Shown: positions 111 through 24,133 of the stretch, in pieces
How positions within the stretch are numbered: position 1 is the stretch's first letter
Layout: every line of letters begins with the position of its first letter
From: Rhodothermales bacterium
GTDB lineage: Bacteria > Bacteroidota > Rhodothermia > Rhodothermales > Bin80
NCBI GenBank assembly: GCA_951812585.1
Contig: OX638318.1
Span: 400,819 to 464,818, forward strand
Reading direction: 5' to 3'
DNA: 64,000 bases
Position numbers and translations under genes: made by a program
Notes under the pieces: model-generated
What the model was told of the DNA's origin: nothing
The model's input: the letters and a program-made list of their open reading frames with translations, nothing else
The model's database searches: none

Positions 111-1277
111 TTACGTGAATACATCCGTGACGCGGTTGAAAAACGAGCGAATCTTGGACCTTGCGCTCGGACGGAAAGAGGGCGACTTGCGCAGGCGTGC
201 AAGCGTATGCCGATCCTCTTTGGTGAGGGTGCGCGGCGTCCATACATGAACAGTAACCAGGAGATCCCCGCGGCGGCCGGAGTTGATGTCCTGGATGCCC
301 TTGCCTGCGATCCGCAGCAAATGGCCCGACTGCGTTCCAGGCTTGATGTTCAGTGGCGCAGTCCCGTCCAGCGTAGGTACCGCGACTGCAACGCCCAGTG
401 CAGCGTCGGGAAAGGAAATGTACAGATCGTGAAACAGATCGGTGCCCCTGCGCTCAAAGTCATCGCTGGGAATCTCCTTGATCACCACCCGCAGATCTCC
501 GGGCGGCCCGCCGCGCTTGCCGGCGTTGCCTTCCCCGCGCAGCGATAGGTACTGCCCCTCCGAAACACCCGCCGGGACCCGAACCGAAACCGTCTTTTCG
601 GCATCCACGCGGCCCTCGCCCCAGCACTCGCCGCACTTGTCCTCGATCACCTGCCCCTCGCCATGACAAGCGCGACAAGGACGCACGTTGACAATCTGGC
701 CCAGCATCGTTTGCCGGGCCTGCCGCTGCTCGCCATAACCATCGCAGGTGCCGCACATACGCAAAGCCTTTCGACCTCCCTTGGCACCCGTGCCCTCGCA
801 GGCCTCGCAGACAATGAATCGGCGCAACTTGACCTTCTTGCCCGCAATCCCCTGGGCGACTTCTGCAAGCGTGAGCCTGAGCGTTATTCTGAGATTTTCG
901 CCGGGTTGCCCGATCGACGCGCGGCGACGCGGACCTGAGCCACCCCCAAAAAAATCGCTCCAAGGACTCCCGCCCCCTGCAGACTGGGAAAAGATGTCGC
1001 TGAACGCACTGAAGATGTCCTGTACGTTGCTGAAAGGAGAACCGGTGGCTCCGTTGCCGCGAACCCCGGCATGCCCAAATCGGTCATACCGCGCACGCTT
1101 GTCGTCGTCGGAGAGCACTTCATAGGCCTCGGCGGCCTCCTTGAACTTCTCCTCTGCTCCCTTGTCGCCCGGGTTGCGGTCCGGGTGATAATGAAGGGCC
1201 TTCTTGCGGTACGCCTTCTTGATGTCGGAAGCCGTTGCATCGCGCGCAACGTCCAGTATATCGTAGTAATCTCTCAT
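111..1277 (-). CDS. dnaJ: Chaperone protein DnaJ
   Basis: Cytosolic Hsp40 co-chaperone that delivers unfolded clients to DnaK and stimulates its ATPase. The 388-residue product has the full type I layout: a J domain at residues 1-70 with the HPD motif at 31-33, a Gly/Phe-rich linker at about 70-120, four CxxCxGxG zinc repeats from about residue 157 (CEACEGTG, CGTCDGYG, CRACHGEG, CGECWGEG), then the two C-terminal client-binding sheets. The ATG lies 15 bp after grpE, so it is the third gene of hrcA-grpE-dnaJ. dnaK itself is not in the window. Confidence 0.97.
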   Translation of the reverse strand: MRDYYDILDVARDATASDIKKAYRKKALHYHPDRNPGDKGAEEKFKEAAEAYEVLSDDDKRARYDRFGHAGVRGNGATGSPFSNVQDIFSAFSDIFSQSAGGGSPWSDFFGGGSGPRRRASIGQPGENLRITLRLTLAEVAQGIAGKKVKLRRFIVCEACEGTGAKGGRKALRMCGTCDGYGEQRQARQTMLGQIVNVRPCRACHGEGQVIEDKCGECWGEGRVDAEKTVSVRVPAGVSEGQYLSLRGEGNAGKRGGPPGDLRVVIKEIPSDDFERRGTDLFHDLYISFPDAALGVAVAVPTLDGTAPLNIKPGTQSGHLLRIAGKGIQDINSGRRGDLLVTVHVWTPRTLTKEDRHTLARLRKSPSFRPSARSKIRSFFNRVTDVFT

Positions 1278-1292
1278 GGCATCTTAATGGAT

Positions 1293-2417
1293 TCACGCGG
1301 CCACGATGACCTGCGCATAGCGAAGCACCTGATCTCCGTACATGTAGCCGCGGCGCACTTCATAGACTACCGTGCCGGCCTCCTTTCCTGGCATATGGGT
1401 CTGCCCAACGGCCTCATGGCAAGCAACCTCAAAAGGCCGATCCAAGACCTCCATGATGCGCACCCCAAAGGTCTGCAGCGCCGCGCTGAACTGCGTAGAC
1501 ACTGCGACAAGTGCCGCTTCCAGACGCGCATATGCACAGGACGCGTCTGTATCTTCCTGCTCATCCAGCGCCGCACGGAGTGCCTCGAGTACAGGTTGCA
1601 AGGCGTCGATCACTTCCGCACGCGCGCGTTGCTCTTCGTACGTCCGCTCCAGCTTAGCGCGCCGGGTGTACGCCCGGTAGGCCCCCGCGACGCGCCGAAG
1701 TCTGACGTGCGCTTCCTCCAGTGCCTCTTCCAGCGTAGGCGGCGTAGCATCGTCCGCAAAATCGTCTGTTGTATCATGTGCGGCATCGTCCGCTGGCGCG
1801 CCTGCCGCGGTGCCAAGCGGCACTGGTGCTTCGAAGGCGAAGCGTGCAATCGTTTGTGCGAAGACCTGGTAGACAAGCTCAGCCCCGTCCTTTTGCGCGT
1901 CGTAGGCCTCTGCGGTCAACGTCGGCATCGCATCCAGCCACCGCTGCAGGTCGTCAAACACGGTAAGCGACTCCTCAAGCACCGCCTTGCGCGCACGCTG
2001 GGCCCACTGCGGCCGCTGCTCCTCGGTGCGCCGCCTGAAGTTGTCAAAGTCGCGCTGGAGCCGCTCGCGCTGATCCTCGACCGCAAGGAGCGACCGCTCA
2101 AGTGCCGCGATGCGCGCGGTCTCTGCAGCCTGGGCTGCTTCCGCAGCCGCCGCTGTGGCAACCTCCGGGTCGCCATCATCCGGGGGCTCCTGCTCCGCTG
2201 AAGAGACGCCACTGATGCCTGCATCGGTGTACGCTTCCTGCGCGCCCTCGGCCTCCACAGCATCCACACGTTGCAGCTCCGCCGGCGCGGAGGCCTCGTC
2301 CGCACCCTCCAGCCTGCGCGCACCATTGGCTGATGGCGCAGCGCCGACATCGCTGCACGGCATCTCATCCGGCGCTTCCTGCTCCATGGTCGTTACCGTG
2401 GTCTCATTCGTCTCCAT
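1293..2417 (-). CDS. grpE: GrpE nucleotide exchange factor with duplicated helical unit
   Basis: Nucleotide exchange factor for DnaK. At 374 residues it is nearly twice the usual ~200. Residues 1-100 are acidic and Ala-rich. Residues 103-205 form a GrpE-type long helix plus four-helix-bundle segment (motif LQRDFDNFRRRTEEQ, then VFDDLQRWLD and a YQVFAQ-like turn). An acidic linker follows at 206-228. Residues 229-320 repeat the same helical pattern (AYRAYTRRAKLE, LQPVLEALRAALD), and 320-374 form the C-terminal beta domain with the conserved FEVACHEAVG segment. GrpE normally works as a homodimer, so this may be a single-chain pseudo-dimer with only one complete beta domain; that is inference. 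It sits between hrcA (9 bp gap) and dnaJ (15 bp gap). Confidence 0.88.
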   Translation of the reverse strand: METNETTVTTMEQEAPDEMPCSDVGAAPSANGARRLEGADEASAPAELQRVDAVEAEGAQEAYTDAGISGVSSAEQEPPDDGDPEVATAAAAEAAQAAETARIAALERSLLAVEDQRERLQRDFDNFRRRTEEQRPQWAQRARKAVLEESLTVFDDLQRWLDAMPTLTAEAYDAQKDGAELVYQVFAQTIARFAFEAPVPLGTAAGAPADDAAHDTTDDFADDATPPTLEEALEEAHVRLRRVAGAYRAYTRRAKLERTYEEQRARAEVIDALQPVLEALRAALDEQEDTDASCAYARLEAALVAVSTQFSAALQTFGVRIMEVLDRPFEVACHEAVGQTHMPGKEAGTVVYEVRRGYMYGDQVLRYAQVIVAA

Positions 2418-2426
2418 CGCGCTGAT

Positions 2427-3497
2427 CTATCGCTGTATCGTTTGACTTATCGCGGGGCGGTTGAGCAGTGATGCCATGTTCTCAACCAACGCTATTGCCC
2501 GTTCGTAGTCCATCCGCATCGGCCCCAGAATACCCACGGTGCCCACGGACTCGCCGAGCTGGTACCGCGCAGTAACGATTGAATAGGCCTGGGCGGTGCT
2601 CTGGTTGATTTCGCTCCCAATGCTCACCGCAGCCTGCCCCATCACATCCGCTTGGCGCTGCCCCTCAAAAAGCTGCACCACGAAGCCCTCATCCTCGATC
2701 ATCCTGATGACATGGCGAACCTCTTCAGAATCATCGAATTCCGGTTGCCGGAGCAGTTGCTGCGTACCCCCATGGCTGACCCGACCCGTCACAGAGTCGC
2801 TGAACAGCACGGCCTTCTCCTTGAGAATCAGTTGAACGATCCCCGTTTCATCGTCATCAAGGTCGCGTGTGCGGTCTTCGTACGTCCGGCGGATCTCATC
2901 CAGCCGCAGCCCAGCGAGCCGCTCGTTCAGCAGCTGTACGACGCGATCCAGCGCATATCGCCTGATATCCACGCGCGTTTCGTAGATGATGGTTTGGACC
3001 AGTCGGTTGCGCACACTGATGACAATCATGACCCGCGGCACCGCGAGCGGCACCACATCCAGGCGCTCGAGAATTCCCGTGGATATCCGCGGACTCAGCA
3101 CCACGCCCAAAAGCCGTGACATCCGGCTCAAGATCCTTGAGCCCTCCTTAAACAACTCGTCGGCATTGTCCATGAGCCGATCCAGCTTCGCCTTGAGCAA
3201 GCGCTTTTCCACGATGGACAGTTCGGGCAAGTCCATCAGGTCGTCCACAAAGACACGATAGCCCAACTGCGTCGGCATCCGCCCCGCTGAGGTGTATGGA
3301 TGGCGGAGATAGCCCCAGGCTTCCAGATCCCCCATCGTGTTGCGCACCGATGCAGCACTTAGACCCACCGGATGCCGACGGGTCAGCGTTCGCGACCCTA
3401 CAGGCCCTGCGGTGTCTATGAAGCTGCGCACAACCAGGCGCAGAATCATCTGCTCACGCGGCCCCAGTGGGCGTTCTAATTCCCTTGACGCTGTCAT
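2427..3497 (-). CDS. hrcA: Heat-inducible transcription repressor HrcA
   Basis: Repressor of class I heat-shock genes. In the family, a winged-helix N-terminus binds the CIRCE inverted repeat, and GroEL keeps the protein active. The 356-residue length and the N-terminal pattern (LGPREQMILRLVVRSFI, then GPVGSRTL and LSAASVRNTMGDLE) fit HrcA, as does the central GAF-like domain. It is the first gene of hrcA-grpE-dnaJ. I see no canonical CIRCE (TTAGCACTC-N9-GAGTGCTAA) in the ~80 bp between it and the divergent sppA; a different palindrome is present there. Confidence 0.96.
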   Translation of the reverse strand: MTASRELERPLGPREQMILRLVVRSFIDTAGPVGSRTLTRRHPVGLSAASVRNTMGDLEAWGYLRHPYTSAGRMPTQLGYRVFVDDLMDLPELSIVEKRLLKAKLDRLMDNADELFKEGSRILSRMSRLLGVVLSPRISTGILERLDVVPLAVPRVMIVISVRNRLVQTIIYETRVDIRRYALDRVVQLLNERLAGLRLDEIRRTYEDRTRDLDDDETGIVQLILKEKAVLFSDSVTGRVSHGGTQQLLRQPEFDDSEEVRHVIRMIEDEGFVVQLFEGQRQADVMGQAAVSIGSEINQSTAQAYSIVTARYQLGESVGTVGILGPMRMDYERAIALVENMASLLNRPAISQTIQR

Positions 3498-3570
3498 CGT
3501 CCAATATGCTCATGTAGGCTCATGCAAGAGTCTTGCCACCGCCATTTGCTGCACACCTTGAACCCCACGG

Positions 3571-3586
3571 TGGCAGGTGTCTGCCA
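3571..3586. promoter_or_regulatory. Perfect palindrome TGGCAG-N4-CTGCCA between hrcA and sppA
   Basis: The sequence TGGCAGGTGTCTGCCA is a perfect 6-bp inverted repeat with a 4-nt centre, 74 bp upstream of the hrcA ATG and overlapping the most upstream possible sppA start. Its location in the divergent hrcA/sppA control region makes an operator role possible. It does not match CIRCE. Confidence 0.3.
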
Positions 3587-5487
3587 GATTTGCAGAGTAC
3601 CCTTTGCAAGGACGGCTGTTTCGCACGGCGGCCCTCAGCGCAACATGCAGCAGCCGTCAGCGTATTCGTTGGTACACTTTGCTTATTGCCACCAATACGA
3701 AACAGACCGTGCGTTTTTTGTCCGCACTCGCCGCCAGCGTCCTGGGCACCTTTATCGCGGTGGCCCTTGTGATGTTTGTCGGGTTCATGTTCTTTGCCGC
3801 GCTCTTGGCCACCACGGCTTCCACCTCCACCGTTCCCCGCGCCGGCTCAGTCCTGGAGATCCAGCTGTCGGGTGCTGTACCGGAGCTGGCATCCAATGAC
3901 CCCATAGACCAGGTCCTCAAGATCTCCCCGGCCTTCGATTTGCCCAGGCTCAAGGCGGGACTCAAGCGTGCAGCGACCGACAACCGCATTGAAGCAGTGT
4001 GGCTCCGCACGCACGGCATTGCCGCCTCTTGGGGCACCCTGCAGGAAATCCGCCAGGCGCTCATCGAATACAAGGAGAGCGGCAAGCCGCTGATTGCCTC
4101 CAGCGGAGAATCCTTCATCACGGAGAGAGACTACTTCCTGGCCAGCGCGGCAGACGAGGTCTACGCAGCGCCTGGCTCGTTTTTTGAATTCAACGGCCTG
4201 TACGCCCAGACTTTCTACTACAAAGGCCTTCTGGACAAACTCGACATCGAGCCTACCATCGTGCGGGCCGGTTCCTTCAAGTCGGCCGTTGAGCCGTTTA
4301 TGCGGACGGATATGTCCGAGGAAAGCCGCCTGCAGCTTCAGACCCTGTTGCAAACGCATAGCGAGGTTCTGACCACAGCCATCGCCGAAAGCCGCAGCAC
4401 GACGCCGGATCACATCGAAAGGCTGATGCGCGACGAAGCTTTCATCACCGTAGACGACGGTCACCGGGTCGGCCTGGTGGATTCACTGCTGTTTGATGAG
4501 GCGGTGGAAGACGCCATCAAGGACCGCATTGGCACAGCCTCGGAAGACGCGCTCAAGACCATCAGCCTGGGCGCCTACGCTTCATCAGCCGCGCCCGCGA
4601 ATACGGGCACGGAAGGAACCATTGGCATTGTCTATGCCGTGGGTGCCATCGTTAGCGGAGAAAGTAATGTCGCTGGTGGCACAGTGGGCTCGTCCACATT
4701 CGGCAAGGCCATGCAATCGGTCCGCGACAAAGACGATGTCAAGGCTGTGGTGCTTCGGATCAATTCTCCGGGCGGATCGGCGATCGCATCCAATGCCATG
4801 TGGCAGGAGATTGACAAGACGGCAGCGGTCAAGCCGGTCGTCGTGTCGATGGGTGACCTTGCTGCCAGCGGCGGATACTGGATCGCCACCGCGGGCGACA
4901 CGATTGTCGCTGATCCCACAACGCTGACCGGATCCATCGGCGTCTTCGGGATGCACTTCAATGTGGGAGAAATGCTGGAATCCAAGTTAGGTGTAACCAC
5001 CGACCGCGTTGCCACCAGCGATTATGCGGATATGTTTTCGGGCATGCGTCCGCTGCGCAGCGAAGAACAAGCGATGCTGGCACGCGTCATTGACGCAACC
5101 TACTCGGATTTCCTGAACCTGGTCGCCGAAAGCCGTGGGCTGGATGTGGATGCGGTGCACGCCATCGCGCAAGGACGTGTCTGGACCGGAGCGGATGCCA
5201 TGGACATTGGGCTGGTGGATGTGCTGGGAGGCATGGACACAGCCATTGGCATCGCAGCCGAGCAGGGTGGTCTTGACCCGGGCACCTTTCGCCTCCTTCG
5301 CCTGCCGCAGCCCAAATCATTCATGGATGAACTGGAGGACGCCCTGCTGATGCGTGTGGGTCGCCTGCTGCGCCTGTCGGTTGCGCCACCCCTGGTGCTA
5401 GAGCCGCACGCAACGCTTATTGATGAAGTCGTGCGCATGCATGGCACTCCGCAGTCGCGCATGCTGCTTGACATTACGATCAAGTAG
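3577..5487 (+). CDS. sppA: Signal peptide peptidase SppA, 67-kDa type
   Basis: Membrane-anchored serine protease of family S49 that degrades cleaved signal peptides. The duplicated long form is present. A hydrophobic anchor lies at residues 47-80. The lysine of the catalytic dyad is in SFKSAVEP (K235) and the serine in DLAASGGYW (S431), equivalent to E. coli K209/S409. The start is uncertain: the open frame begins with GTG at 3577, but the family usually starts just before the anchor, which would favour TTG at 3679. It is divergent from hrcA and convergent with gpmI, whose stop lies 9 bp away. Confidence 0.93.
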   Translation: MSARFAEYPLQGRLFRTAALSATCSSRQRIRWYTLLIATNTKQTVRFLSALAASVLGTFIAVALVMFVGFMFFAALLATTASTSTVPRAGSVLEIQLSGAVPELASNDPIDQVLKISPAFDLPRLKAGLKRAATDNRIEAVWLRTHGIAASWGTLQEIRQALIEYKESGKPLIASSGESFITERDYFLASAADEVYAAPGSFFEFNGLYAQTFYYKGLLDKLDIEPTIVRAGSFKSAVEPFMRTDMSEESRLQLQTLLQTHSEVLTTAIAESRSTTPDHIERLMRDEAFITVDDGHRVGLVDSLLFDEAVEDAIKDRIGTASEDALKTISLGAYASSAAPANTGTEGTIGIVYAVGAIVSGESNVAGGTVGSSTFGKAMQSVRDKDDVKAVVLRINSPGGSAIASNAMWQEIDKTAAVKPVVVSMGDLAASGGYWIATAGDTIVADPTTLTGSIGVFGMHFNVGEMLESKLGVTTDRVATSDYADMFSGMRPLRSEEQAMLARVIDATYSDFLNLVAESRGLDVDAVHAIAQGRVWTGADAMDIGLVDVLGGMDTAIGIAAEQGGLDPGTFRLLRLPQPKSFMDELEDALLMRVGRLLRLSVAPPLVLEPHATLIDEVVRMHGTPQSRMLLDITIK

Positions 5488-9318: not shown

Positions 9319-11655
9319 TTAGCGAATCACGGAAATCTTGCCGTAGGCGACCCCTTCACCATTATTGCCTATTGCGACTACCAGATACAGTCCGGACGGT
9401 ACCAGTGCCCCGCTGTGGTCCCGTCCGTCCCACACCGCCTTGCCGCCCCGCGCCGAGAATCCTGCCACCTCTTCGCCGTGAATAGCCAGGATCTTGATGT
9501 CGGTGGCCGCCACCAGCCCCTCAATAAAGATTTCAGGAGCCTGCTCATTGGTAATCGTTACCGGGTTGGGATAGACAAACAGGTTCTGCACGGCGGCAGC
9601 CGGACCTATGGCATTGCTCTGGTAGCTGACGAGTCCCTTGTCGGTTGCGATAAAGATCAGTCCCGTGTTCTCATCGACCGCAATGGCATTGACGCGGTCA
9701 GAAAACAGTGGAGTGTTGTGCGACGCAAAGTGTTCCCCAAGCTCAAAGCCGTGCGCATCGCGCACCACGTATACCCCTTCGTTGGTGCCGAACCACAGCT
9801 GCCCGGCAGGATCGAGAGCGATCGTGCTGATCTCCAGCCCGCGCAGCATGTACGAACTCTGCGACGCGACGGTCCAAACCGGCCAGGTGGCTTGCACCGT
9901 CGCGTCCGTAGCTGCCAATGTGCTGGAGATGAAGTAGGCGGGACCTTCATCGGTGCCGACCCAGATGCGGCCGCTGGCATCCTCGACGATCGCGTTGATA
10001 TGCACGCTGGGCAAACCGCGCCCGGCCGCACCTCTTCCTCCGAAGTACTGGCACTGGTCGTCTGCCGGATCTGTCGGCGTTTCGCCCGTATCGAGCACTA
10101 GCACGCCGGTGGTAAGCCTGAGGTCCATGCGGTTGACGACCACAATCCACTTGAGCCCAGAGGAGTCTACGATGATGCGTCCCAAGGCGGTGGTAGTCCC
10201 CAGGTTCGTGCATATCGGCGGCGGCAGTGCGGTCCACTCACCATCAGCCGTCCTGACGTGCAGAGGATGGGGTGCGACCAGGTTGGTTACCCACAATGCA
10301 CCGTCTGCATCATTGGCCATCCCCGCCACGATGACGAAGCTGGCCTCACCTGCAGCAGGCAGGAGCGTAGAGTTGGTGTGATCGTAAATCGTAATCGCCT
10401 GACTGGCATCCACTTGCGCCAGTCCGTTGCCGCGCGACCCGGCCCAGGCGTTGCCCTGCGCGTCTGCGTAGATGCGCCAGTAGTTGCTGCGCCTGCCCAA
10501 CTCGCTATAGAACCGTTGCGTAAAGCTTGTCCAGCGCCCTTCCCTGCTAAGCGTGTAGAAGCCAGAGCGTGCTATCCCCTCGACTGCCGCGGCCCACAGG
10601 TTGCCTTCCGCATCCACGATCAGGTCTCCAAAGGGGCTGTCGTACGGCCCGTCCGGGTAAATCTCTCCGGTAATCAGGGCCGGACGCGCATTACCGCTGG
10701 GGCGTTCGAAGTGGTTGAGCCCGGTTTCAGAATCGCCAATCCACATGTGGCCATCGGCGTCAACCACCAGGCTTCGCAGGTTGACATAGCCATCCGCCTG
10801 CACGACGGCACCGCCCGATGCAAAGGCCGCCAGGACGTTGAACGGGGTCATCACCAGAAGCCGGTCCGGCAGCGCTGCCAGATCAATGACGGCGCGTGTG
10901 GTCAGGTTGGTGTTTTCATAGTGGCTGTCAGCGCTGCGCTTGCCCAGCCCAAAGGCCGTACCCACATAGATGGTGCCACCAAATGCCTCGATGCTCAAGA
11001 CATCAGGGGAGGGTCGCACATTACTCTCAACCGTCCAGGCGGTCGGATCCTGCAGGTTGGGCGCACTCAGCGGCGCATGGACCACGCCTTGATCCGTTGC
11101 AAGCCAGAGCCCCGGCCCCCCTTGGGGCACTTCTGCCAGTGTAATGTCCCGTACTGCAACAGGAGAAGAAAGCGTTCCAAGTTGGCTGTAGGTATCCCGC
11201 ACCTCAGTGCGTGCAGGGTCGAACACTACGAGCCCAAACGCCGTGGCCACCATCAGCGAGTCGCCATACAAGTACAGGCGGTTGATCTCTTTGGACGGGA
11301 AGCGGTCGCTGCGCTGAATGTCAAAGAAGGTAGTAACGACTCCGGAAGCCAGGTCAAGCCGGTCGATCACACCGTCCGCGTAGCCGCTCCAGATCACGTC
11401 TCTGCGCGCATCGTATGCTATCGCACGCGCCTGGACATCGTACAAGCCTTCTGCAGCCGTATAACGGCTGACCTCTCCCGTGCTTGTGTCGTAGCGAAAG
11501 ATGCCGCCGGTTGACCCAGCCCACATGGCACCGGGTGCAGGTGCCAGTGCGTTCACGTCGCGCGAAGAGGTGTGGGCTGTCCACTGAGCACGCGCGGAAT
11601 CGGTTAAGCCTAATCCCACCAACAGTCCGCACAATACTATCACGACCCAGCGCAT
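9319..11655 (-). CDS. PorZ-like two-propeller protein with T9SS sorting domain
   Basis: Predicted exported protein of 778 residues. A signal peptide (MRWVVIVLCGLLVG to ARAQ) is followed by repeated propeller blades of the two-component-regulator type (for example DARRDVIWSGYADGV and GQLWFGTNEGVYVV). It ends in a FlgD-like/type A sorting domain: VYPNPV, then GKAVWDGRD, SGLYLVV and a terminal KISVIR. Length and layout match PorZ, the surface component of the type IX secretion attachment complex that delivers anionic LPS. The ATG at 11655 was chosen because it begins the signal peptide; upstream frame lies in ribH. It overlaps the end of the ribH frame by a few nucleotides only in spacing, so the two are likely co-transcribed. 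It could instead be a generic T9SS cargo. Confidence 0.7.
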   Translation of the reverse strand: MRWVVIVLCGLLVGLGLTDSARAQWTAHTSSRDVNALAPAPGAMWAGSTGGIFRYDTSTGEVSRYTAAEGLYDVQARAIAYDARRDVIWSGYADGVIDRLDLASGVVTTFFDIQRSDRFPSKEINRLYLYGDSLMVATAFGLVVFDPARTEVRDTYSQLGTLSSPVAVRDITLAEVPQGGPGLWLATDQGVVHAPLSAPNLQDPTAWTVESNVRPSPDVLSIEAFGGTIYVGTAFGLGKRSADSHYENTNLTTRAVIDLAALPDRLLVMTPFNVLAAFASGGAVVQADGYVNLRSLVVDADGHMWIGDSETGLNHFERPSGNARPALITGEIYPDGPYDSPFGDLIVDAEGNLWAAAVEGIARSGFYTLSREGRWTSFTQRFYSELGRRSNYWRIYADAQGNAWAGSRGNGLAQVDASQAITIYDHTNSTLLPAAGEASFVIVAGMANDADGALWVTNLVAPHPLHVRTADGEWTALPPPICTNLGTTTALGRIIVDSSGLKWIVVVNRMDLRLTTGVLVLDTGETPTDPADDQCQYFGGRGAAGRGLPSVHINAIVEDASGRIWVGTDEGPAYFISSTLAATDATVQATWPVWTVASQSSYMLRGLEISTIALDPAGQLWFGTNEGVYVVRDAHGFELGEHFASHNTPLFSDRVNAIAVDENTGLIFIATDKGLVSYQSNAIGPAAAVQNLFVYPNPVTITNEQAPEIFIEGLVAATDIKILAIHGEEVAGFSARGGKAVWDGRDHSGALVPSGLYLVVAIGNNGEGVAYGKISVIR

Positions 11656-11657
11656 GC

Positions 11658-12119
11658 CTAAATCTTTTGCATGAGGATGACCATCTCCACGGCGGCCATC
11701 GCGGCTTCCCTGCCTTTGTTGCGGTGGTCGCGTCCAGATCGGGCGTGCGCCTGCGCGGCATCGAGCGGCGTGATAACGCCCAGCGTCACCGGAATGCCCG
11801 TGTCCAGAGCCACCTGCTGAATGGCGCGCACTACCGTGTCGCTGATCACCTCGAAGTGATAGGTCTGGCCCTTCACGACTGCGCCGAGGCATACAATAGC
11901 GTCAACGTTGCCGCTGGCAGCTAGCCGCTTGGCCACCAGCGGGATCTCAAAAGCTCCTGGACAGCGGTATACTGTGATGTTGGAAGCACCGCAATCAGAA
12001 AGAGCGGCCTTGGCTCCATCCAGCAGGCCCGCGGTCACCGGCTCATTGAAGCAGCTCACCACGATGGCAAAACGCGCGGTGTCTGCGCCTAGTGCTTCCC
12101 TTAGGAATGATTCTGCCAC
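11658..12119 (-). CDS. ribH: 6,7-dimethyl-8-ribityllumazine synthase
   Basis: Penultimate enzyme of riboflavin synthesis. It condenses 5-amino-6-ribitylaminouracil with dihydroxybutanone phosphate, normally in a 60-mer shell or a pentamer. The 153 residues hold FNEPVTAGLLDGA, PGAFEIP, CLGAVVKGQTYHFE and GVITPLDAAQA...NKG, all positioned as in RibH. The start is GTG, directly abutting the TAG stop of the upstream PHP gene, which points to translational coupling. No other rib gene is in the window. Confidence 0.95.
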   Translation of the reverse strand: MAESFLREALGADTARFAIVVSCFNEPVTAGLLDGAKAALSDCGASNITVYRCPGAFEIPLVAKRLAASGNVDAIVCLGAVVKGQTYHFEVISDTVVRAIQQVALDTGIPVTLGVITPLDAAQAHARSGRDHRNKGREAAMAAVEMVILMQKI

Positions 12120-22450: not shown

Positions 22451-24133
22451 GTGAGCTGGCTGTTTGGATTTGCAGGTCCGGTGACCCCGACCTTGCGGGC
22501 CAAGCTCAGTAGCCATCATGGCGCGCCCTCATGCAGCGCCGAGAGTAGCAGATACTACCTTAAGGCAGGCGGTCTGCCGGTAACCTGCCGGAAGGGGTCA
22601 CTGCGGGGCGGTCAAGGACGATGGCTGGTGGTAGGCCTGGGCTTTGCGCAGCACCGCCTGCTTGACAACGAGGCGTGGGCTTCCGCGCTGTCCGGACCCC
22701 CGGAGACGCTGCGCCAGGTGGACGGGCATTTCGTGGCCGCTGTTGCGGACAAGGATCAGGTCGTGGTAAGGACCGATCAGTTGGGTACGCGAACCTTGCA
22801 CTACGCGCCATATGCGGGCGGCTATGCGTTCTCCTCAAGGCTGGACTGGATAGCCGGACTCTGCGGAGGGCTGGATGTTGACTACGATGCATTCGGCTCG
22901 CACTGGATCACCTTTAATCAGCTCTCGACCAGGAGCCAGGTCCAAGGGCTGTCGCGCCTCGGGCCTGGAGGAGTGCTCACGCTGCGTGGTGGCAAAGCAG
23001 CGGCTGCGGAGCGCCTGTGGGCATGCGACTTCGGCGATACCGACCGGGATGGCGATGTCTTCACGCGCGCCCTGTCCGGATATTGTCGACCCTTGGGCAT
23101 GGGCAAGGTAAGCCTGGGACTTTCGGGCGGATTGGATTCGCGGCTGCTTTTGGCGCTCGGCGCCGAGCACACGCATGTCTTTGGGCCGAAGGACCATATC
23201 GATGTGCGCCTGGCGCAGCGCATCGCAAGAGGCGAGGGCGTGCCACAGCGCCACCTGCACCAACCCTGCGGGGATGCTGAAAAAGCCTGGGGACTCCTGA
23301 TGGCGCGCAGCGAAACCACGCAGGTTGTCTCTGCGGCCTCATCCGTGATGGATCTCGAGCATTACGTTGCCTTGCGTCGGGAAGGTTTCAGCATCATTGA
23401 TGGCGGCTTTGGTGAAGTGGCCCGGCGGCAATTCATGAACCGCCTGCTGCGCTTTGGCAAGGGCTGGGCGAAGCCATCACAGGTCTTGCCACACATCCGT
23501 GTCGGACGCGCGGCGGTGTTCAGCAAGGACGCACAGGCGGCGATGACACGCGGGGCACTGCGCGACATCACGTTTCAGCGCGACGCGCTGCCCAACGGGA
23601 TCAATCCAGAAGACGCCGCAGACCTTATCGGTGTCCGCACGCGGCTTCCCAACTTCTTTGGGCTGGAGCAGAACCGGCTCGACCACCTGGCTGCCTGCCT
23701 TATGCCGTTTGCCCAGCCGTCGGTCTTGCGGGCGCTGTTTCGGCTCCCCTTAGTCCTGCGACGTAATGGCACGCTGTTCAAGAGGCTGATCCGTTCGCGA
23801 AGGCCCGGCCTGGCTCGATATCCACTGGTCAAGGGCGCGACCGTTTATCCGTTCCGCCTGCCCACCCTGGGCGCGCACCTCGTGAGCCGCTTCAAGAAGA
23901 AGGCTGGACTAGCTTATCGCGACCCGCGACCCCACCAGTACCTCGAAGCGGTCAAGCCCTATGCGCTTGATCTGGTACATGCCACCGATGTGCGTACGTA
24001 CGCCGCCTACGACTACCAGAGGCTGAAGCGACTGGTGCTTGGCTATTACGAGGGCCAAACGGCCCTCGCCGGTTCCGTAGACTGGTGGCTGGCCTTTGAG
24101 CTGTGGCGGCAGACCCTCAAGGGACCGCGCTGA
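22451..24133 (+). CDS. Asparagine-synthase-related protein lacking the Cys nucleophile
   Basis: Resembles asparagine synthetase B over 560 residues. The N-terminal Ntn domain is recognisable (FGFAGPV, then RTDQLGTRTLHYA), but position 2 is Ser rather than the nucleophilic Cys, so it cannot use glutamine as AsnB does. The C-terminal half has an intact PP-loop, LGLSGGLDSRLLLAL, for ATP binding and substrate adenylation. Related enzymes include beta-lactam synthetase and amide-forming enzymes of natural products. GTG start, 15 bp after ppdK, so probably in its transcript. The substrate is unknown. Confidence 0.75.
   Translation: MSWLFGFAGPVTPTLRAKLSSHHGAPSCSAESSRYYLKAGGLPVTCRKGSLRGGQGRWLVVGLGFAQHRLLDNEAWASALSGPPETLRQVDGHFVAAVADKDQVVVRTDQLGTRTLHYAPYAGGYAFSSRLDWIAGLCGGLDVDYDAFGSHWITFNQLSTRSQVQGLSRLGPGGVLTLRGGKAAAAERLWACDFGDTDRDGDVFTRALSGYCRPLGMGKVSLGLSGGLDSRLLLALGAEHTHVFGPKDHIDVRLAQRIARGEGVPQRHLHQPCGDAEKAWGLLMARSETTQVVSAASSVMDLEHYVALRREGFSIIDGGFGEVARRQFMNRLLRFGKGWAKPSQVLPHIRVGRAAVFSKDAQAAMTRGALRDITFQRDALPNGINPEDAADLIGVRTRLPNFFGLEQNRLDHLAACLMPFAQPSVLRALFRLPLVLRRNGTLFKRLIRSRRPGLARYPLVKGATVYPFRLPTLGAHLVSRFKKKAGLAYRDPRPHQYLEAVKPYALDLVHATDVRTYAAYDYQRLKRLVLGYYEGQTALAGSVDWWLAFELWRQTLKGPR

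Follow-up and report, generated by a model that had tools for sequence, protein, structure and literature searches.

RESULTS

The only GrpE of this Rhodothermales bacterium contains two GrpE helical units in one chain, each one made of a long stalk helix and a short bundle helix. Judged by its sequence, its operon and its beta-wing the protein is a GrpE, although it departs from the usual architecture of one unit per chain. The ORF, which starts with ATG, is the middle one of three co-directional genes, hrcA-grpE-dnaJ (Table 1); the same operon is found across the Rhodothermales, and it links grpE to the genes of the DnaK system. A Pfam search of the 3.2-Mb single-contig genome gave one GrpE, and a single DnaK is encoded away from the operon. 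Because it is the sole GrpE beside one DnaK and is sited in this operon, the tandem protein should do the normal job of a functional GrpE, as the exchange factor of the only DnaK of the organism.

Table 1. Location of the grpE locus and of the parts of the tandem GrpE in the window
Feature	Position	Strand	Basis or remarks
dnaJ	111..1277	-	directly downstream of grpE in the operon, 15 bp gap
grpE, tandem (single-chain) GrpE, 374 aa	1293..2417	-	only GrpE of the genome; Pfam matches
hrcA	2427..3497	-	directly upstream of grpE in the operon, 9 bp gap
N-terminal tail, residues 1-83, acidic (21 D/E, 3 K/R), probably disordered	2169..2417	-	composition
Unit 1, residues 84-193, wingless, with its stalk helix at 85-162 and its short bundle helix at 169-193	1839..2168	-	profiles and model
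Linker, residues 194-228, acidic, low model confidence	1734..1838	-	model and composition
Helical part of unit 2, residues 229-317, with a shortened stalk helix (229-285) followed by the short bundle helix (292-315)	1467..1733	-	profiles and model
Single beta-wing, residues 318-374 (RPFEV..HEAVG...GTVVYEVRRGY...VLRYAQVIVAA)	1296..1466	-	sequence comparison

Despite the presence of hrcA, no CIRCE-like operator (up to 3 mismatches to the full inverted repeat) was found upstream of this gene (3498-3600) or anywhere in the window, that is, the whole stretch of 64,000 nucleotides that was analysed (1-64000). Elsewhere in the window there were a gene for a PorZ-like N-terminal beta-propeller protein of type IX secretion (9319-11892, minus strand) and, just after the gene of a PEP-utilising enzyme, a 560-aa ORF (22451-24133) with no Pfam match at E 1e-5.

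Two GrpE matches in one protein

The whole protein scored 122.9 bits with the Pfam GrpE model (PF01025, curated cut-off 25.8 bits), which in the genome search matched it twice, over the N-terminal half (model 7-111, 44.6 bits) and over residues 228-373 (model 22-164, 77.6 bits). A sequence-only reading of this DNA had claimed two successive GrpE-like segments, and the separate scan of its first half had been set beforehand as the test of that claim. Each half exceeded the cut-off when scanned apart: residues 100-227 reached 44.0 bits (E 2.4e-11) and the second half 79.4 bits (E 3.2e-22). Units 1 and 2 scored 78.0 and 100.9 bits with a profile derived from 41 single GrpEs of the Rhodothermales. 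When excised, unit 1 gave 84.7 bits with this profile, and the highest score among its shuffled versions, 2,000 of them plain and about 2,000 heptad-preserving, was 11.6 bits, indicating that it is not a generic coiled coil. The two units shared 30% identity over 71 residues.

The same reading had placed the first segment at residues 103-205, where a GrpE unit indeed lies, starting somewhat earlier (the modelled helix begins at about residue 85). It was right about the acidic linker that joins the segments (7 D/E and no K/R in residues 198-228) and about the beta domain, since the wing sequence follows unit 2 only and unit 1 consists of stalk and short helix alone. A C-terminal wing with the F..HEA and VLR.A.V.V motifs was present, once per chain, in all three tandem proteins known to us (see below); these chains differ from an ordinary GrpE in having two helical units instead of one.

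The length of the N-terminal tail varied among the tandem relatives; in the protein of G005 (L034:3594-5108) it is acidic, rich in Glu, Asp and Ala, and has about 190 residues, versus 83 in the window protein. An internal start giving a wing-only partner was rejected because no ATG, GTG or TTG with a good site occurs close to where unit 2 begins. At residue 153, within unit 1, a GTG preceded by AGGAG (window 1959-1975) was seen; G005 does not conserve this residue, and the arrangement is probably due to chance.

Conserved residues in the units, the wing and DnaK

Near-invariant positions R248, D275, D276, R279 and G303 of the profile were kept by unit 1 (R128, D155, D156, R159 and G178 in the numbering of the window protein) and lost by unit 2, while A242, R249, L270, S280 and L315 were kept by unit 2 and lost by unit 1. 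By alignment, G303 is equivalent to E. coli G122, and R239 and R250, which both units keep in most members, correspond to R64 and R75 of M. tuberculosis. The near-invariant N246 and G262 were lost or altered in both units of most tandem members. At the shared helical positions unit 1 was closer to ordinary GrpE than unit 2 (summed log-odds of 96 versus 47). Since unit 1 keeps near-invariant GrpE residues lost by unit 2, and vice versa, these sequences suggest that unit 1 is probably more than a mere scaffold. A clean reciprocal loss of conserved residues was not significant at several thresholds (Fisher p 0.18-0.66), and M. tuberculosis K74 and the human linker-contact positions, which are protomer B contacts in those species, appear better kept in unit 2.

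In the wing, F330, H335, E336, A337 and the C-terminal strand were kept in the tandem proteins. G327, found in 41/41 singles, was replaced by D, E and Y in the three tandem proteins, and D331 (human D171, a lid contact on face S) by E, E and N, versus 34 D and 7 N in the singles; as a mark of the tandem form the latter change is suggestive only, because N occurs in singles too. Both changes fit, but do not prove, a relaxed second face of the wing.

The sites of DnaK contacted by GrpE, namely the interdomain linker and the NTTIP loop, were canonical in sequence. There were 19 clade-fixed differences in DnaK, one of them at lid residue 521 (R or H in the single-GrpE relatives, L in 3/3 tandem species), which by alignment adjoins the equivalent of mortalin R574. 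Coevolution of DnaK with the lost wing was rejected, given the ordinary linker and NTTIP loop and because one in 19 is no more than expected by chance. A second DnaK-like sequence, probably a broken Hsp70 paralogue, was observed in three pieces in G002 (G002:C25:1916-2947, L063 region), and there were extra Hsp70-like matches in G001 (G001:C24:1-999, L062) and G003 (G003:C7:5577-6701, L061).

Predicted structure and proposed pairing of the units

Residues 84-374 of the window protein were modelled with AlphaFold as a monomer, using an alignment of the three tandem sequences. Adding single GrpEs to this alignment was tried and dropped, because MAFFT aligned the helices of a single GrpE with unit 1 but its wing with unit 2, and the packing might be biased as a result. 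The model (mean pLDDT 76.8, pTM 0.65) showed the four helices listed in Table 1, long and short in each unit, with a low-confidence linker between the pairs and the wing strands at the end, rather than the one continuous coil that would have spoken against two units. A separate query with the G005 protein and the same three sequences gave the same order of helices (mean pLDDT 78.4, pTM 0.65). In both models the long helices had pLDDT values mostly of 85-97 and the wing was of low confidence; the lower-ranked models were poor, with mean pLDDT down to 45-49.

Judged by its structural matches, the predicted structure appears to bring the helices of both units together, as the sequence-only reading would require, in what resembles four-helix bundles formed by a single chain. 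The window model was superimposed on 6dhz over 99/99 residues at 2.9 A (model 62-235), and its single-chain matches as a group covered model residues of about 60-235. The G005 model matched 2lfd over 114/115 residues at 2.9 A with Z 12.5 (model 74-255), as well as many FAT-type four-helix bundles. Both short helices and the end of each stalk fall within these ranges, but the matches are below the Z of 13 under which the tool advises caution, four-helix bundles being common and middling Z values arising by chance. Foldseek gave no significant match for the whole model (all E above 0.01); GrpE chains ranked 2-3. Taken as support and not as proof, the models suggest that the helices of both units may form a four-helix bundle within one chain. 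In canonical GrpE the equivalent bundle takes two chains. The linkers, of 35 residues in the window protein and about 25 in G005, can bridge the approximately 50 A estimated from the helix lengths for parallel pairing within the chain.

Distribution and origin of the tandem form

We found the tandem form in three of the 16 species of the family, namely in the window genome, in its congener G001 and in G005, which belongs to a different genus; the remaining 13 have one ordinary GrpE unit each. As G001 and G005 have the design too, assembly error is ruled out; the relatives compared were Rhodothermales metagenome-assembled genomes. No other tandem GrpE was found among 114 genomes of the order. 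In addition, a sample of 218 genomes of the phylum was searched (21 of them also in the order survey), and 16 genomes with two GrpE matches (nine from the phylum sample, among the matches listed, and seven of the order) were re-searched with no tandem being found, the double matches being separate genes, fragments or split frames. Scanning the genome contigs with a single tandem sequence gave no matches, and with the three-way tandem alignment only the already known G001 and G005. A weak GrpE match of 26.9 bits (L039, G010:C18:47192-47662) was noticed within a 626-aa open frame of the family relative G010, which also has a normal GrpE.

In a tree of HrcA and DnaJ the three tandem species formed one clade (support 1.00) nested among single-GrpE genera. 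A FastTree analysis of the helical units grouped the three unit 1 sequences together (1.0) and the three unit 2 sequences together (1.0), implying that the duplication is older than the split of the two genera, and unit 1 was placed with the ordinary GrpEs of the family at 0.80. The tandem proteins have diverged to approximately 42-50% identity among the three species. The trees show a single origin and conservation of the design, which arose by one internal duplication of the helical half of GrpE in an ancestor of a small Rhodothermales clade.

DISCUSSION

In published structures DnaK and GrpE form asymmetric 1:2 complexes with one wing on the nucleotide-binding domain (NBD), and both GrpE protomers contact DnaK (PMC10803776, PMC11685456). 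Protomer A grips the NBD with its wing and stalk, and protomer B uses its stalk to hold the substrate domain and the interdomain linker; in the human complex the wing of protomer B also touches the Hsp70 lid (PMC10803776, PMC11685456, review PMC12987570). We consider it probable that the tandem protein is a covalent pseudo-dimer, which brings both halves of the GrpE dimer and one beta-wing together in one chain, with the wing-bearing unit 2 as protomer A and unit 1 as protomer B. Unit 1 would fold back via the flexible acidic linker and pair in parallel with unit 2, giving a stalk and a four-helix bundle inside one chain. Unit 2, as the sole bearer of a wing, would use it to open the nucleotide-binding domain of DnaK, and unit 1 would contact lobe IIB, the substrate-binding domain and the interdomain linker through its stalk and short helix. 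Of the two wings of a canonical dimer, the one that makes the lid contact in the human complex would be missing. The pairing of the units within the chain is suggested by the models, and the role of each unit, the 1:1 stoichiometry with DnaK and the activity are inferred. If the published mode of action applies, the presence of only one wing means that unit 2 must be A and unit 1 B; this assignment is drawn mainly from the location of the wing, because the split of residues is not exclusive and some protomer B contacts are better kept in unit 2. The sequence-only reading had likewise proposed a covalent pseudo-dimer, a notion the models favour, with one protomer structural and the other catalytic, a division that needs refining as both protomers contact DnaK (PMC10803776, PMC11685456).

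An assembly artefact or a chance coiled-coil similarity, which might be suspected because weak spurious matches are frequent with long helices, can be practically dismissed: the design occurs in three genomes at the same place of the operon with no internal stop, the scores of the shuffles were far below that of unit 1, and this explanation is already refuted. In another reading unit 1 is an appendage, decaying or regulatory, that extends the N-terminal stalk or tail of a working GrpE made of unit 2 and the wing and dimerising via unit 2. This would agree with the higher score of unit 2 plus wing on the GrpE models and with the reported action of GrpE N-terminal tails on the substrate-binding domain of DnaK (PMC12915176). 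We hold it to be very unlikely, however, because unit 1 is the nearer of the two to ordinary GrpE at the shared helical positions, has the near-invariant D, D, R and G residues absent from unit 2 and is retained in 3/3 tandem species.

A more serious competitor, though still an unlikely one, is that the tandem chains dimerise, pairing unit 1 with 1' and 2 with 2' or swapping 1 with 2', to give an assembly of four units and two wings with room for one DnaK or two, in which the extra unit would lengthen or stiffen the stalk. Work cited in PMC6987454 describes canonical GrpE as dimeric, with higher oligomers forming at high concentration, and interchain pairing is compatible with our single-chain models because a monomer predictor cannot weigh dimers. 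Nevertheless, both models match single-chain four-helix bundles to which each unit contributes helices, the linkers have the length needed for pairing within the chain, and the divergence of the units from each other suits a heteromeric pair more than two symmetric pairs. Going beyond the covalent pseudo-dimer itself, the fuller proposal that the protein evolved into a pseudo-heterodimer binding DnaK 1:1, with each role of the dimer taken by one of two diverged units and with the second wing and its lid contact discarded, has in our opinion about an even chance of being correct.

With canonical bacterial GrpE (PF01025; E. coli, M. tuberculosis, G. kaustophilus) the tandem protein shares the stalk helix, short bundle helix, beta-wing, acidic N-terminal tail, hrcA-grpE-dnaJ operon and conserved signature residues, but canonical GrpE has one unit and one wing per chain and forms a two-winged homodimer, whereas the tandem has two units and one wing per chain. 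In mitochondrial GrpEL1/GrpEL2 and Mge1 the two protomers are used asymmetrically on one Hsp70, as proposed here, although they are separate chains, each with its own wing and with no covalent fusion, GrpEL1 and GrpEL2 being separate paralogues. The tandem protein has its nearest precedents in heterodimers encoded by separate genes, among them plant chloroplast CGE1/CGE2, in which two diverged GrpE units work as a heterocomplex (PMC6987454) but come from two genes, each with its own wing. The GrpE family is thus known, and what appears to be new, judging from the sequences, is the combination of two helical units and one wing in one chain; in agreement with the sequence-only reading, which knew of no such GrpE, we found no earlier report of a tandem GrpE in the open-access literature, subscription journals being outside the scope of the search.

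According to current descriptions, GrpE acts as a homodimer whose identical chains have to assume different roles on the same DnaK. The tandem form, carrying both roles and a single wing, amounts to a natural separation-of-function experiment. With it each half can be mutated alone, so as to find conserved residues needed in one protomer only, and one can ask whether exchange and substrate release can do without the second wing, which contacts the Hsp70 lid in the human complex. The tandem GrpE could also supply an obligate 1:1 GrpE for structural work.
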